Origin: Candidatus Kryptonium thompsonii
GTDB taxonomy: Bacteria; Bacteroidota; Ignavibacteria; Kryptoniales; Kryptoniaceae
Direction of reading: 5' to 3'
Assembly: GCA_001442925.1 (NCBI GenBank)
Contig: LDXX01000005.1
Span: 186,001 to 250,000 of the forward strand
DNA: 64,000 nucleotides
The notes beneath the pieces are model-generated. The model did no database searches, had not been told where the DNA came from, and was given only the letters and a program-made list of their open reading frames with translations. Positions 10,801 through 16,643 of this stretch are shown here, in pieces (positions within the stretch are counted from its first letter, which is position 1; every line of letters begins with the position of its first letter). Both the position numbers and the translations under genes were made by a program.

Positions 10801-11335
10801 CCGTGCGTGCATCGAGATGAAAAAGAAAAACTTTGCGGAATCTGAATCCATTTTGATGAAGCTTTTAAACAACGAGAACATCAAGGGAAACGATGATATT
10901 TACTTGAAAATTTTAATTTCTCTTCTCAAATTAAACTATGTAACAGGCGGAATAGAAAAACTTGAAATGGTGAGATCAATTGCTGAAAACTACGCTGAGC
11001 AAGTTGAAAATTTCAATCTAAAGGCTTTGTTATTTTTCCTTATCTCGCTTAGCTATGAGGATAAAGACAAATCTCTTGCAGTTAAATATCTTAACAAGTC
11101 AATTGAGTCACTTGGTTATGAATTCTTCGAGCCGAAGTGGAAAATCTACCTTATGCTTGCGCAAAATTACAAGAGGCGAGGAATTGAATCAAAGTTTTTA
11201 CAAAGTTTCGAAACAGCATTGATAAATTTTCAAGAGTTGCTTCAAAGAATAGAAACGCCTGAATTCGTTAAATCTTATCTCGCTGATGTGGAAAATGAAA
11301 AGTTTTTAAAAATACTACAAAACTTAAAAATTTGA
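7859..11335 (+). CDS. Ser/Thr protein kinase - NTPase - TPR signalling protein
   Basis: This is a 1158-residue cytoplasmic protein. Residues 6-265 form a complete Hanks-type kinase: Gly loop GQGAVAEV, Lys36 in VALKIAKP, catalytic HRDLKPEN (Asp131), metal-binding DLG (Asp150) in place of DFG, and APE at 174-176. Residues about 280-560 form an AAA/STAND-like NTPase with Walker A GADGIGKTS at 306-314. The C-terminal half (about 600-1158) is a long array of TPR repeats, such as the units beginning AHIYNNIGVNQFKRNNYEKALENYQKALAIY. There are no membrane segments, so the sensor input probably comes through the TPR/NTPase parts. The start is TTG with no clear ribosome binding site. Its stop overlaps the following sigma-54 activator, whose activity it very likely controls. 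Such STPK-STAND-TPR proteins are known in other bacteria, but the ligand here is unknown. Confidence 0.88.
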   Translation: MLLNKRYEILSKIGQGAVAEVFKARDALLNTIVALKIAKPNPVYEEKIATEFRITTQFEHPNIISAYDFGTVRICEDQKLLSRKFIVLEYCDTQDIIKYLSNAEFKDKIKIMYQICHAVHTIHKAKLVHRDLKPENILFDSTTSRIKITDLGLAIGQEQINFDELPAGTLYYLAPEILQGSKFDHRADIYSLGILFYYILNGKLPFDTDEPVEILKWHLSPRHIDFSNIPEEVQKLLNSMLEPDPSHRPQNLVEVMNLLKTLMPDLPEIKNFKVRKPFGKDEALKKAIEILKTATITTGKITLITGADGIGKTSLLRYISAEAKLLGFETILINEINIQKTLNLILKSPLASFLTPELKMKAEKLKEEKILNYHTVIEFSEFLEKLLSDASNNFPLAIFIDALNPSEPLSEIFIKSILLSDKLKRKNIAIFIACETTEFITFIAPEVEKIYLRPLNTEELKNYLYANFDFDPATAQELAEMLSEYTGGISAVLEIFSNYLQDKIDKSTIEISKIANLEFDAILNRIKQLNSTQREILDILSLASEPVEIEILSKFFNHDISSHLYQLQSFGFIKIENEKVSIAYKALKKYIESDLDEEARKRFHLNYTLAYHDEDMKNADKVLYHFAKMGDSEGVSKFAEVGIENLISKGEFKKAINLCQEIFELLPEYLKTLFKIKLGFIHLQLGNYKDAISTLENLDELDAFELKSEAYFHLGDTNKAIEILKHTFKMYDTLYEKIRIATKISQILASIGDIDTALILLELFENKRILSFIEKTDVLGDLYAGLGIIFQMKGYKEKAKIYFELSLEHRLKKQNQFKLIAGYNNIANFYSINGKYDEAITYWKKALEILKSTGNIVQSAHIYNNIGVNQFKRNNYEKALENYQKALAIYRAINDVHGVANVLGNIGELMIEEFKLGEAYKHIKEAKELHIKTNNLDGLLETDLLLLSLYLVAGDIKNAELTLNEINQKHPETPPELIECYRACIEMKKKNFAESESILMKLLNNENIKGNDDIYLKILISLLKLNYVTGGIEKLEMVRSIAENYAEQVENFNLKALLFFLISLSYEDKDKSLAVKYLNKSIESLGYEFFEPKWKIYLMLAQNYKRRGIESKFLQSFETALINFQELLQRIETPEFVKSYLADVENEKFLKILQNLKI

Positions 11336-12744
11336 ACAGGGTGAACTATAAATTTAAAATATTCCTGATAAGCACCAGCAGGGCAATTCTTGAAGATGTT
11401 AAAAGATTTATCCCCACCGAAGAAGGTTATTTTGATGTCAGCTTAATATCTTCCTATAACTCTTTGCGAAAGTTTGCAATCCAAAACCCAGACCTTGCCA
11501 TAGTTGCTATTTCAAACGATAGCGATGAAATATTGCTTGAAACCGCTGTCGAGCTATTTGGCTCACAAACTGTGGCGTGCGTCGATTACATTAAATCATA
11601 TGCCTTGACCGTTAAGCTTATAAAGCTAAGAGTTTTATCATACTTTTCAATGCCAGAAGAGAGCACTTCATTTTCAGATTTCTTGAAAGGGAAAGTAGAA
11701 GATTGGAAGAAAAAAAGTGATATAGAAAAGCTTTTAACGATAAGAAGGGAACAATTTAACTTCAGCAGTTTCATTGGAAATTCAGAAAAAATTCGCGATG
11801 TAATAGCTCTTGTTAAAAAGGCAATTGAACATAGGGATTTAACAGTTCTCATAACAGGTGAAACGGGGACAGGTAAAAATCTCATCGCCAGAATAATTCA
11901 TCAAAATACTTATTCAGACATAAAACCTTTCGTAGAAATAAACTGCGCTTCAATTCCACCTACGCTTCTTGAGTCCGAATTGTTTGGTCATGAGAAGGGT
12001 GCTTTCACAGATGCGAAGGACAGAAAAATGGGTTTATTTGAAGTTGCCAGTGGCGGGACAATTTTTTTAGATGAGATAGGAGATCTTGATTTTAATCTAC
12101 AGGGAAAGATTTTAAAAGTTCTTGAGGATAAGACATTTAGAAGGGTTGGCGGGGTTGAAACTTTAAAATTTGAAGGCAGAATTATAGCTGCGACAAATAA
12201 AAACCTTGAACATCTTGTTGCGGAGAATAAGTTCAGGCGCGATTTATACTACAGACTGATGCTTTTGCCAATTTATTTACCACCCCTGCGTGAAAGAGGG
12301 GATGACATTTTTATTCTTGCGGAATATTATATGAACAAATTTAATGAACTCTACCGTAAAAATCTCCCCAAACTTAAGGGGATATCACCGGAAGCAAAGG
12401 CTTTACTGAAAAGATACCCATGGCCTGGAAATGTCAGGGAGTTGAAACATGCGATAGAAAGGGCTGTTATTTTAAGCGATGGAGAATACTTAACACCCGA
12501 TGATTTTAAATTTTTATTTGAGAAGAAACCAGCATCACTAACCCAACAAATCGAGGAAGCCTCTTCAAACATTCAAATAACATTACCATTCGAGTCGGCA
12601 AGCCTAAAAAATCTTGAAAGAGAACTCATAAAGTCTGTTCTTGTCCGCGTCTCAGGGAATAAAAGTCGGGCTTCAAAAATTTTGGGAATATCCCGCCCCC
12701 GTCTCGACCGCCTGATCCAAAAATACCGCATCAATAATCCCTGA
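11332..12744 (+). CDS. Sigma-54-dependent activator with degenerate receiver domain
   Basis: This 470-residue enhancer-binding protein has a receiver-like N-terminus (about 7-120), a sigma-54 AAA+ domain (about 145-380) and a Fis-type HTH at the C-terminus (about 425-467). The AAA+ motifs are intact: Walker A GETGTGKN (176-183), sigma-54 contact loop GAFTDA (223-228; the commonest form is GAFTGA) and Walker B IFLDEI (244-249). The receiver has lost its chemistry. The acidic pair after beta-1 is ISTS, the phosphoacceptor position is Ala59 (PDLAIVAI), and the switch Lys-Pro is Met-Pro. Control by phosphotransfer to Asp is thus unlikely. The TTG start overlaps the kinase stop as TTGA; GTG at 11341 is an alternative. 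A matching -24/-12 promoter lies 140 bases downstream. Confidence 0.9.
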   Translation: MNRVNYKFKIFLISTSRAILEDVKRFIPTEEGYFDVSLISSYNSLRKFAIQNPDLAIVAISNDSDEILLETAVELFGSQTVACVDYIKSYALTVKLIKLRVLSYFSMPEESTSFSDFLKGKVEDWKKKSDIEKLLTIRREQFNFSSFIGNSEKIRDVIALVKKAIEHRDLTVLITGETGTGKNLIARIIHQNTYSDIKPFVEINCASIPPTLLESELFGHEKGAFTDAKDRKMGLFEVASGGTIFLDEIGDLDFNLQGKILKVLEDKTFRRVGGVETLKFEGRIIAATNKNLEHLVAENKFRRDLYYRLMLLPIYLPPLRERGDDIFILAEYYMNKFNELYRKNLPKLKGISPEAKALLKRYPWPGNVRELKHAIERAVILSDGEYLTPDDFKFLFEKKPASLTQQIEEASSNIQITLPFESASLKNLERELIKSVLVRVSGNKSRASKILGISRPRLDRLIQKYRINNP

Positions 12745-12761
12745 AATAAATCATTACACAC

Positions 12762-12778
12762 TGCAACAATTTGTTACA
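12762..12778. promoter_or_regulatory. Candidate upstream activator site for the sigma-54 regulator
   Basis: TGCAACA-ATT-TGTTACA is an inverted repeat of 7 bp with a 3-bp spacer and one mismatch. Its centre is about 120 bases upstream of the -24 element, the usual distance for enhancer-binding-protein sites. It starts 18 bases after the activator gene stop. There is no T-run after it, so it does not look like a terminator. That the adjacent Fis-type HTH binds it is inference. Confidence 0.45.
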
Positions 12779-12887: not shown

Positions 12888-12903
12888 TGGCACAATCTTT
12901 GCA
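12888..12903 (+). promoter_or_regulatory. Sigma-54 (RpoN) -24/-12 promoter
   Basis: TGGCAC-AATCT-TTGCA matches the sigma-54 consensus, with GG (12889-12890) and GC (12901-12902) exactly 12 bases apart. Transcription should begin near 12914. It lies directly after a sigma-54 activator gene and upstream of two genes with strong ribosome binding sites, which supports function. Confidence 0.82.
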
Positions 12904-13423
12904 AGTCCTATATATAGATTTTGTTCTTTACATGTTTGATGCAAGTTGAATATGAAGATTCTGGCAGCTCTGATTAAGACTGGGAATTTTAATTGCTTGT
13001 TTTAAAGAAGTGTGTGAGGCTTGATCGCTTTAGAAAGTTTAGTTTATTGTTGTGTAAATTAACTATAAATGTTGGTAAATTGTAGTTTCAAGTTTAACTC
13101 GTTCTTTTAAATTACGCAGGGCTTTTATGTCATTGTGTTCTGTTATTTAAGCATTTGCGGAATCGAATGTAAGGTTTTTATCTGCTCCAATTTGAGATAT
13201 GAGGAAGAATTTAAAGTTGACTAGCGCTTGCAATGTGTGATCTGTTTAAAGTTTAATGGTTATAAGTTAACTGCGAAAATTGTTAGCTGCAGTTTAGCTT
13301 AATTGATATTAAACCCTGTAAAGATATTGATGTGAATGTTTTTTTGCTAATTGTAAATGTGAATTTTACTAACCATAAAACTTAAAAACTAACTAAATGT
13401 CAAACTAAAACAAGGAGGTTACC

Positions 13424-13981
13424 ATGAAGCGCTTAATCTCAGCCCTCAGCGTCATCATCTTCGCAATTAGCTTAGCTTTCTTCTTCACAAGCTGCGCAGA
13501 TAACCCGGTGGGGCTTTCAACTGGGAAGCCGGGGATTATCAACAGAGATGGACAAATTAAACTTTTGAAGTGGAATGACGCGTTTAAGCAAGAACTTCTT
13601 GCGAAGAAAGGATTTGCTGGAAAGTGGGTATTCCCAGGAAAAGATGCAACTGTCGGAGGAAGGAAAACTTACAATAATTCCGTTTATATCCCTGCGGGCG
13701 CGGTGAGTGAACCAACCTATGTGACAGTTGAAGTGCTTGGCGGAGATTATGCAGCTGTTGAATTCAATCCGAGCATGACATTTAACACAAATGTTACGAT
13801 CTCACTTTCATACGCTGGGATTGACCTTGGAGATGGTTCACCATATGATCTCAAGCCAGTATGGTATAATCCGGACACTGGAAACTGGGAATATGTTAAT
13901 AGCCCAGTGACTGTTGACACTAAAAAGCAAACAATTAGTTTCCAGACCAATCACTTCTCCAGATATGGTTGGTCATGGTAA
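13424..13981 (+). CDS. Lipoprotein with ZU5-like beta domain
   Basis: This is a 185-residue exported lipoprotein. The signal peptide MKRLISALSVIIFAISLAFF leads to a lipobox FTSC with acceptor Cys at about 25, followed by ADNPVG. The mature part contains NSVYIPAGAVSEPTYVTVEV and later LKPVWYNPDTGNWEYV and FQTNHFSRYGW, an arrangement like ZU5-type beta domains found in secreted Bacteroidetes proteins. The ribosome binding site is strong (AAGGAGG before ATG). It is the first gene after the sigma-54 promoter and leader, and is 42 bases from the TPR gene, so it is the main output of the module. Its role is unknown; a surface or periplasmic structural function is possible. Confidence 0.78.
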   Translation: MKRLISALSVIIFAISLAFFFTSCADNPVGLSTGKPGIINRDGQIKLLKWNDAFKQELLAKKGFAGKWVFPGKDATVGGRKTYNNSVYIPAGAVSEPTYVTVEVLGGDYAAVEFNPSMTFNTNVTISLSYAGIDLGDGSPYDLKPVWYNPDTGNWEYVNSPVTVDTKKQTISFQTNHFSRYGWSW

Positions 13982-14023: not shown

Positions 14024-15274
14024 ATGAAGAGACTTAAATCAACTTTTTTAGATAAAGTTATAGCCGTCGCCCGCAGGTATTGCGGGGACGACTTTCTTAA
14101 AAAATTTAATGAGATACTAAAAGAGCGAGAAGAAAATCTCGCTCTAGACTTAAAGGAAGCAAAGGCGAAAGTTGAAGTTGAACCCGAAGTTCAAGAAGAA
14201 ATAATAGCCGAAATTAAGTTCGATACGCTTTTAAGTTTGGCTGGTGAATATCTAGATCAGTTTAAGTTCATTCAGATGTGCTTTGACATTGGAGATGTAT
14301 GTCTAACTTATGGCGAATTTAACAAAGCTGAAAATTGTTTCCTTCTGGTGATAAAGAAAGCAGGTAAAGGTCGAGAATTTGACGAAGCAAGGGCGAAGGC
14401 ATATATAAAGCTTGGTGAGGTTAAAACGAAGCAAAACGAATTGAGCGATGCTGTATCCGCCCTAAGGCAAGGGCTGAAGATATATCAAAAATTGCGGAAC
14501 ACCGAAGGAATAGCAATATGTGAAAATGGTCTTGGGATAGCATTTTATGAAAGTGGTCGCTATGATTTTGGCACTACATACTTTAACAATGCGCTTAAAA
14601 AAGCAGAAAAGACAAAGAATGAAGAATTGATCGCAAGATTGCATATAAACCTTGGTATAATCGAGAGCATGCGTGGAAACTGGGATAAAGCAATTTCGCA
14701 TTTTCAGCAGGCATTACCGCGACTTGAGAAAAGAGGTGATGCGCTTAGGCTTGCCCAAACATACCACAACATTGGCATTACGCTTATTCATAAAAACGAA
14801 TACGACGCTGCTCTTAAAGAATTTGATAAAAGCATTGAGCTTGCCCAAAAGCTTGAAGATAGTTATATGCTAGCCCTTGCCTATCTTGGAAAAGCGGATG
14901 CTTATGTTAGGATCAAAGATCTCCCGCTTGCAACTGCTTATGTGACCCGATCACTTGATATATTCTATAAAATTGGAGACAGACAAAGTATCGCTGATGC
15001 TTATAGGATTCTCGGCGTTATTCAAATCGAGCATGGAAATTTACAACTTGCGGAAAGTTATTTCAAGACCGCCATTGATTTAAATCTTGAATTTAGAAAC
15101 TGGCTCAACCTTGGCGAAACCTACTATGAATTGAGTCAACTTTACAAGAAGCAAGAGCAAATCGACAAAGCCCGAGAATCCTTAAAATCATCGCTTAAAT
15201 ACTTGAAGAAGATCAAAGTTAAATCCTATATCGCTCGAATTCAGGCTGAATTAGCAGAGTTAAAAGAAGCGTAG
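14024..15274 (+). CDS. TPR-repeat protein
   Basis: This 416-residue soluble protein has an N-terminal helical region (1-75) followed by about eight tetratricopeptide repeats to the C-terminus. They include AQTYHNIGITLIHKNEYDAA and ADAYRILGVIQIEHGNLQLA. There is no signal peptide or catalytic motif. Its ribosome binding site (AAGGAGG) is strong, like that of the lipoprotein gene 42 bases upstream; the two appear co-transcribed and end at the terminator at 15289-15318. The repeats resemble those of the kinase encoded at 7859, so it may be a scaffold or antagonist interacting with that kinase. This is inference only. Confidence 0.82.
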   Translation: MKRLKSTFLDKVIAVARRYCGDDFLKKFNEILKEREENLALDLKEAKAKVEVEPEVQEEIIAEIKFDTLLSLAGEYLDQFKFIQMCFDIGDVCLTYGEFNKAENCFLLVIKKAGKGREFDEARAKAYIKLGEVKTKQNELSDAVSALRQGLKIYQKLRNTEGIAICENGLGIAFYESGRYDFGTTYFNNALKKAEKTKNEELIARLHINLGIIESMRGNWDKAISHFQQALPRLEKRGDALRLAQTYHNIGITLIHKNEYDAALKEFDKSIELAQKLEDSYMLALAYLGKADAYVRIKDLPLATAYVTRSLDIFYKIGDRQSIADAYRILGVIQIEHGNLQLAESYFKTAIDLNLEFRNWLNLGETYYELSQLYKKQEQIDKARESLKSSLKYLKKIKVKSYIARIQAELAELKEA

Positions 15275-15344: not shown

Positions 15345-16643
15345 ATGATTGAAAATTTCGAAATATTCGAGGAAGTAAAAAAGAAAATAACTGATGTCAA
15401 AAAAAGAATTGAAGAACTTGAGGGAGAAAAACATAGGAATTTGGAAATTATCCTCAATGTAGTTAAAGCGATCAACTCATCTCTCATTCTTGACGAGGTT
15501 CTAAAAATAGTGTTGGATAATTTAATCTCACTTGCAAAAGCTAATAAGGGTTGTCTTTTCCTGGTAAATGGGGATAAAAATCTAAAGTGTGCGCTCGCCA
15601 GAAATTCAAAGGGTGAAACATTAGACGAAGAAGCAATCGCATATAGTAAAAGTATAGTTCAGGATGTTTATTCCAGTGGGGAGCCGATAGTCATTGAAGA
15701 TATTATCAACTACGAAGATTTCATGAGAAAAGAAAGCATAATTGCTTTAAACCTGAAAACTATAATTTGCGTCCCGTTAACAGTTGATGGTCAGATACTT
15801 GGTGTTGTTTATGTTGATAGCAACCGTGTTACAGAAATTAACAAAAATGAAATACTTCAGCTTTTCGAGATACTTGCCGGTCATGCAGCTATTGCGATAA
15901 GGAATGCAAAACTTTACGAGAAGCTTTCAAAAGCGTATATTGATTTACAATCAGCGAATGAGGCAATGATAAAAGCTGAAAGAATGGCAACGCGTGGAGC
16001 ACTTGCATCTGAAATTGGACATGAGCTATCAAATTATTTAACCATTATTTCAATTAACGCAAAGCTTATCTCAAGAGAGATAGCGAAAATTTCGCAGGAT
16101 GAAAAACTAAATAATTCCATATCTTCCCTACTATCTGGGATCAACAAGATGAAATACTTCATCCGCGGGCTTCTTGACAGCGCGGAGATGAAGCCAAACA
16201 AACAACCAAGCAATATAAACAACATCATCAAGGAAACGATACAGTTCGTACAGCCGTTGTCAAGGTACTCTATTGCAAAATTTGTTGATGAACTTGACCC
16301 CGAGCTCCCGCTTGTTAACATTGACCCGTTTCAATTCCAACAACTTTTGATCAATTTGTATAAGAACGCAACAGACGCTAGGAAAGATGCCACGATAATA
16401 ACAAGAACATACTTTGACAAGGAATTAAATAAAATCGAAATAAGAGTTGCGGACAACGGTCCAGGAATCCCCCCAGAGGTCCGCGAAAAGCTTTTCAACA
16501 TAAACTTAACTACAAAGCCCGAAGGACACGGGTATGGTCTAATGATATGCAAAAAAATAATCGAGAATCACAATGGTAAAATTGAGGTTATAAGTGAAGT
16601 TGGAAATGGAACGGAATTTATAATTTCGATCCCGGTTGAATGA
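15345..16643 (+). CDS. GAF-domain sensor histidine kinase
   Basis: This 432-residue cytoplasmic histidine kinase starts with a short coiled coil (1-35). A GAF domain follows (about 45-195, with CVPLTVDGQILGVVYVDS). The dimerisation segment has a phosphoacceptor His226 in GHELSNYLTIIS. The HATPase domain contains NATDA (N box), VADNGPGIPPEV (G1) and GHGYGLMICKKIIENHNG (G2). There are no membrane helices, so it senses an internal signal. No response regulator with an intact receiver is next to it. The nearby sigma-54 activator has lost its phosphoacceptor, so the partner must lie elsewhere. It lies after a terminator and before its own, so it is probably transcribed alone. Confidence 0.9.
   Translation: MIENFEIFEEVKKKITDVKKRIEELEGEKHRNLEIILNVVKAINSSLILDEVLKIVLDNLISLAKANKGCLFLVNGDKNLKCALARNSKGETLDEEAIAYSKSIVQDVYSSGEPIVIEDIINYEDFMRKESIIALNLKTIICVPLTVDGQILGVVYVDSNRVTEINKNEILQLFEILAGHAAIAIRNAKLYEKLSKAYIDLQSANEAMIKAERMATRGALASEIGHELSNYLTIISINAKLISREIAKISQDEKLNNSISSLLSGINKMKYFIRGLLDSAEMKPNKQPSNINNIIKETIQFVQPLSRYSIAKFVDELDPELPLVNIDPFQFQQLLINLYKNATDARKDATIITRTYFDKELNKIEIRVADNGPGIPPEVREKLFNINLTTKPEGHGYGLMICKKIIENHNGKIEVISEVGNGTEFIISIPVE

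Follow-up and report, generated by a model that had tools for sequence, protein, structure and literature searches.

A long untranslated leader with boxA-like elements behind a predicted sigma-54 promoter in Candidatus Kryptonia

Known boxA systems and the Kryptonia locus

Most known elements of the boxA type belong to rRNA operons, lambdoid phages, CRISPR arrays and the suhB leader, and to our knowledge NusB is near-universal. The placement of boxA upstream of CRISPR arrays was reportedly described by Stringer et al. in 2020, a study that PMC7862264 and PMC12691694 cite. In PMC5725501, the boxA consensus is GYTCTTTAANA, derived for gamma-proteobacteria, and Nus factors on the leader boxA of E. 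coli suhB repress. PMC7862264 describes a boxA of a Legionella CRISPR array, GTTCTTTAAAA, the insertion of which raised the array transcript ~10-fold, and PMC12691694 describes the rRNA antitermination complex as one that blocks Rho and protects CRISPR arrays.

The window (the whole stretch of 64,000 nucleotides that was analysed) comes from a genome of Candidatus Kryptonia (G000), a hot-spring bacterium. Its gene order was compared with that of six further genomes of the genus (G001-G006); the same-genus contigs, found via the lipoprotein, are named Candidatus Kryptonia, Candidatus Chrysopegis kryptomonas or Candidatus Thermokryptus. Common to all seven is the order Ser/Thr kinase-TPR protein, sigma-54 activator, gap, lipoprotein, TPR protein and GAF-histidine kinase. 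The genes and upstream sites of the window are:

11332-12744, + strand: sigma-54 activator (enhancer-binding protein) with an AAA+ domain and a Fis-type HTH (Pfam Sigma54_activat, E 1.1e-64; HTH_8, E 7.4e-8)
12762-12778, no strand assigned: palindrome of the TGYAAC-N5-RTTRCA type, probable activator binding site, in 7/7 genomes
12888-12903, + strand: predicted sigma-54 promoter TGGCACAATCTTTGCA (-24/-12), a near-perfect match, with a site in 7/7 genus genomes
13424-13981, + strand: lipoprotein, 185 aa, the operon's first translated gene (ORF, homologues)
14024-15274, + strand: TPR protein, second gene of the probable operon (ORF, Pfam, synteny)
15345-16643, + strand: GAF-histidine kinase, third gene of the probable operon (ORF, Pfam, synteny)

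The lipoprotein is 82-92% identical to its counterparts in the six relatives, and no family match was identified for it in Pfam or NCBIfam. The activator gene adjoins the promoter, with synteny in all seven genomes and ~150 nt between the gene and the sigma-54 site in each. This site, which the first-pass annotation had correctly placed upstream of the lipoprotein, combines a -24 GG, a -12 GC and the correct spacing with an activator and an upstream site, and scores above 98.7-100% of shuffles in each of the seven genomes. The -12 element deviates from GC in some relatives (GA in G004, G005 and G006; GT in G002). The palindrome lies ~110 bp 5' of the -24 element, with a second copy in four of the seven genomes, and is probably bound by the adjacent activator.

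Perfect matches to TGGCAYN5TTGCW number 17 in G000, six of them within long frames. Among the 11 outside long frames, the site in the window has the farthest downstream frame (537 nt from the start of the site), apart from one match that lacks any downstream frame. The next distances are 297, 215 and 210 nt, and two of these have a shorter frame in between.

The leader and its boxA-like words

As the first-pass annotation had proposed, promoter and lipoprotein are separated by about 500 bases without a sustained frame: the distance from the predicted start near 12914 to the ATG is 510 nt, and no + strand run exceeds 37 codons without a stop, whereas the longest run in shuffles averages 47. Leaders of the seven genomes measure 356-981 nt. 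The window leader is poor in C, again as described (T 39%, A 31%, G 20%, C 11%), giving a GC skew of +0.30, and the skew is positive in all seven leaders. The features of this stretch are:

12914-13423, + strand: predicted untranslated leader, 510 nt, C-poor, unconserved outside short elements; predicted start near 12914, ATG at 13424
12923-12932, + strand: boxA-like element 1, GTTCTTTACA, at +10 of the predicted transcript; place kept (+10 to +16) in 7/7 genomes
13101-13110, + strand: boxA-like element 2, GTTCTTTTAA, at +188; second copy in 6/7 genomes, at +95 to +273
13391-13410, + strand: pre-RBS block AACTAAATGTCAAACTAAAA, near-invariant in 7/7 genomes
13412-13418, + strand: Shine-Dalgarno AAGGAGG before the lipoprotein, from sequence

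The middle of the leader can be aligned above shuffles only with G002 and G003 (0/200 shuffles each), and no such alignment was obtained with G001, G004, G005 or G006. A lack of conservation in relatives, which had been named as a point against the leader, is true of most of it, but specific short elements are conserved. The repeated words noted earlier are enriched in the window leader (AAGTTTA three times and AAGTTTAA twice, reached in 4/1000 and 1/1000 shuffles, respectively), but neither was found in the leaders of the six relatives, so they are unconserved and the AAGTTTAA words were set aside.

The window leader contains two copies of the pattern GYTCTTTNNA, which the first-pass annotation did not mention. 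Across the seven leaders this pattern occurs 13 times (seven first and six second copies, the G001 leader having one copy only), compared with 0.42 on average and never more than 3 in 1000 dinucleotide shuffles; all 13 words are on the sense strand and none on the opposite one. With the first 45 nt removed, the pattern is still present in six of the seven leaders, and 2000 shuffles give at most 3/7. The motif was spotted by eye in an alignment before these specific enrichment tests were made, and because the seven genomes are related, the independent events are fewer than 13. GTTCTTT ranks first in an unbiased 7-mer count (7/7 leaders), but this count is no more than suggestive in itself: shuffles yield some 7-mer in 7/7 leaders in 11/200, and the second copies alone are unexceptional in it.

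In the 64-kb window as a whole, GYTCTTTNNA is at background (8 matches, two of them the leader copies, compared with 11.4 expected), and across G000 the pattern GYTCTTTDHAW gives 218 matches, compared with 287 for the reversed control. With no genome-wide enrichment, an isolated match carries little weight; what counts is where the words lie and that they recur. The combination of a sigma-54 site followed by GYTCTTTA was found exactly once in each of the seven genomes, always at the lipoprotein locus, and the reversed-pattern control gave none. A tighter boxA pattern has nine matches in G000 and five in its reversed control; the nine are the second boxA of the window, the rRNA leader, the 5' end of the tmRNA gene, two intergenic sites (L093 and L094) and four in long frames. 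From these counts, a general boxA regulon in G000 cannot be claimed.

The GYTCTTT core is also that of the organism's own rRNA operon, in which the leader carries TGTTCTTTGAAAA before the 16S gene (L088). This leader was located through boxA itself, because the 16S body reads N after the first few hundred bases. Of 11 loci examined in relatives from the same order, seven have GTTCTTTGACAA or GTTCTTTGGCAA 104-143 nt 5' of 16S, and the other four lack a match, a recognised start or enough upstream sequence. The 16S-23S spacer of such relatives has GTTCTTTGACAA again. The 16S search returned no match in five of the seven genus genomes, and the 16S of G002 (L058), which looks foreign, was left out. 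First copies in the leaders read mostly TTTACAT rather than TTTAANA or TTTGAAA. Second copies in G005 and G006 match the consensus GYTCTTTAANA, whereas the first copies do not; being gamma-proteobacterial, this consensus need not hold in the host phylum.

In its GYTCTTT core, its 5' position in a long untranslated RNA and its presence in more than one copy, the Kryptonia element resembles the boxA of rRNA operons, which is a site for NusB-NusE (S10). It differs in preceding protein genes, in the sigma-54 promoter, in having no obvious boxB or boxC, and in that the first boxA is only ~10 nt from the predicted start. The likeness to CRISPR-array boxA is that a long untranslated RNA is, or in Kryptonia would be, protected, and that the second copies of G005 and G006 are identical to the Legionella word GTTCTTTAAAA (PMC7862264); unlike that case, the Kryptonia stretch is an mRNA leader and not an array. 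Like the suhB element of E. coli, the Kryptonia boxA lies in the 5' UTR of a protein gene. The suhB element is near the start codon and represses, whereas in Kryptonia boxA is 360-980 nt from the start codon and 10-16 nt from the predicted start, and thus suits processivity better than RBS occlusion.

Short leaders in outgroups and gene remnants in the genus

A profile search with the lipoprotein matched 22 of 197 genomes of the class, 15 of the 22 lying outside the genus (190 of the genomes being beyond the seven). We fetched 13 outgroup loci and counted 11, after dropping L127, in which another frame ends 38 nt upstream, and L130, for which no upstream frame was found. With a promoter score based on hand-set weights, 10 of the 11 have their best sigma-54-like site 38-92 nt 5' of the start codon; L124 has no credible site, and L121 and L128 have borderline ones (0.04 and 0.05 of shuffles). 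BoxA was found in 0/11 of the upstream gaps. The order activator, promoter, lipoprotein is shared with Kryptonia in six of the 11 loci, where a sigma-54 activator is encoded directly upstream, whereas the short spacing without boxA, as in ordinary sigma-54 leaders, is not. Since the spacing is 38-92 nt in 10 of the 11, a short leader is probably ancestral; thus, the leader would have grown within the Kryptonia genus, and boxA would have come with this growth.

The spacing between promoter and lipoprotein would have increased from ~40-90 to 360-990 nt, at least partly through a gene for a small cysteine-rich secreted protein that later decayed. The G003 leader (L028:1791-2771) could encode a secreted protein of 166 residues, cysteine-rich at its end (CRCEWFFADCGCEPYK), in an open frame before which no recognisable Shine-Dalgarno was identified. 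This protein has no NCBIfam match, and its Pfam match is sub-threshold and covers part of it only. G001 and G005 encode intact relatives at other loci, and G004 has a shorter relative. The leader of G003 also has a second, decayed end of such a gene upstream, and that of G002 has a decayed copy of the cysteine-rich gene (0/300 shuffles reach the match in either case). In the window, the trace is weaker:

13320-13372, + strand: possible decayed 3' end of a cysteine-rich secreted-protein gene, from a weak local alignment to the G003 frame (1/300 shuffles)

A blastn match of window positions 13329-13423 to G003 (E 3.4e-11) includes the pre-RBS block. No remnant was detected in the leaders of G001, G004, G005 and G006. 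The earlier suggestion that the leader is what remains of a lost gene is therefore apt for part of it, clearly so in G002 and G003 and weakly in the window. From these comparisons, insertion and decay of a gene would account for part of the long leaders, not demonstrably for all.

Proposed function and alternative explanations

We consider it somewhat probable (about 0.6) that this is a boxA-led 5' untranslated leader of a sigma-54-dependent operon, partly derived from a dead gene, and that boxA lets polymerase cross it. The operon (lipoprotein, TPR protein and GAF kinase) would be switched on by the upstream-encoded activator, which would open the sigma-54 polymerase at 12914. With no ribosomes to shield it, the long untranslated RNA that follows would be open to attack by Rho. 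The first boxA would be transcribed almost immediately and would recruit NusB-NusE (S10) to the elongating polymerase; the complex would then be reloaded or stabilised at the second, which in most species follows ~80-260 nt later. The polymerase thus modified would cross the leader to the lipoprotein without Rho termination, as in rRNA operons and CRISPR arrays. The RNA-binding domain of Rho (PF07497) was identified in six of the seven genus genomes, G000 included, and is missing in G005, which is 71% complete. Rho-loading sites are C-rich and G-poor, with which the GC skew of the leaders contrasts, and the C-poor composition would also disfavour Rho loading.

It is possible that the effect has the opposite sign and that the leader boxA represses, by analogy with E. 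coli suhB (PMC5725501). A tentative and rather doubtful extension is that the operon is gated by the availability of Nus factors, the tandem boxA tying its expression not only to the activator but also to free NusB-S10, and thereby to the state of ribosome synthesis; leaders of this long, boxA-led type might recur in Kryptonia.

The leader is real but is not a new structured RNA. That it might be a structured regulatory RNA, a riboswitch or a separate small RNA was suggested by its length and by the hairpins reported in the first-pass annotation. The window leader folds no better than chance (z +0.43; 68/100 shuffles fold as well), the z-scores of all seven leaders span -1.87 to +0.58, and the alignment of the leaders (A2) has 0 consensus pairs. 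This alignment is mostly gapped, with the boxA copies of G005 and G006 in differing columns, and could therefore miss a short local element; the single-sequence folds hint at none. Neither an Rfam match, up to E 1, nor a terminator nor a conserved body was found in the leader. On these grounds we rejected the structural readings, which, like a separate small RNA, are highly improbable, and the proposed regulatory leader is supported in altered form, through its conserved boxA-like words and not through structure. A further suggestion was that a second promoter close to 13424 drives the lipoprotein and makes the leader irrelevant. The near-invariant block at 13391-13410, just 5' of the RBS, could be read in this way, but it has no -10/-35 look and occurs also at the RBS of unrelated genes. 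A + strand scan from the sigma-54 site to 13424 with the E. coli consensus, which may miss the promoters of this clade, revealed no sigma-70-like promoter, and the outgroups keep a sigma-54-like site near the lipoprotein gene. We regard such a promoter as very improbable.

The leader could instead be a passive spacer in which the boxA-like words have no role, made up only of one gene, or several in tandem, that once belonged to the operon and is decaying. The open frame in G003 without a recognisable Shine-Dalgarno, the decayed copies in G002, G003 and, weakly, the window, and a middle that is unconserved beyond the closest relatives all agree with this. Left unexplained are the fixed boxA in 7/7 genomes, the second copy in 6/7 and the 13:0 strand bias, and the four genomes without a detected remnant still have long leaders; we consider a mere spacer unlikely. 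Another possibility is that GYTCTTTA acts as DNA and not as RNA, bound near the sigma-54 start by a repressor or second regulator; the fixed place of the first copy just 3' of the promoter in all seven genomes agrees with this. The word is non-palindromic, however, keeps one orientation and matches the organism's own rRNA boxA, and its second copy is far inside the transcript at a variable distance, which makes a DNA site quite improbable.

If boxA acts in the leader as proposed, Nus-factor antitermination would reach a new setting, a sigma-54 mRNA leader outside Proteobacteria with a conserved and often paired boxA. The locus would also illustrate how a bacterium can cope with a long untranslated stretch inserted between a promoter and its gene. 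Our literature search, outside which most subscription journals lay, found nothing joining boxA with sigma54 antitermination or with RpoN and NusB. The short boxA-free leaders of the outgroups make the order of events directly testable.

The 20-nt pre-RBS block, perhaps a translation enhancer, is repeated with hardly a letter changed ahead of a small plasmid/phage-like gene; the contigs concerned, in G000, G001 and G003 (L055, L056 and L057), are plasmid-like.

Other sites in the genome were noted. The boxA-like word CGTTCTTTGAAA lies right at the 5' end of the tmRNA gene (L086, G000:C1:7534-7550, minus strand; Rfam tmRNA), and another opens a gap of ~550 nt before a zinc-ribbon/TPR protein (L094/L134, G000:C10:42278, minus strand). 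At G000:C7:113827 (L108), the boxA-like core TGTTCTTTGAGA is close behind another sigma-54 site, before small genes. A perfect sigma-54 site at 249101-249116 of G000:C6 (L104:1290-1489, minus strand) has no downstream frame of at least 70 codons. Its predicted transcript, possibly a sigma-54-dependent small RNA, contains repeated GCACCT words, which resemble an anti-Shine-Dalgarno, and has a strong hairpin with a T run at its end (fold z -2.30).
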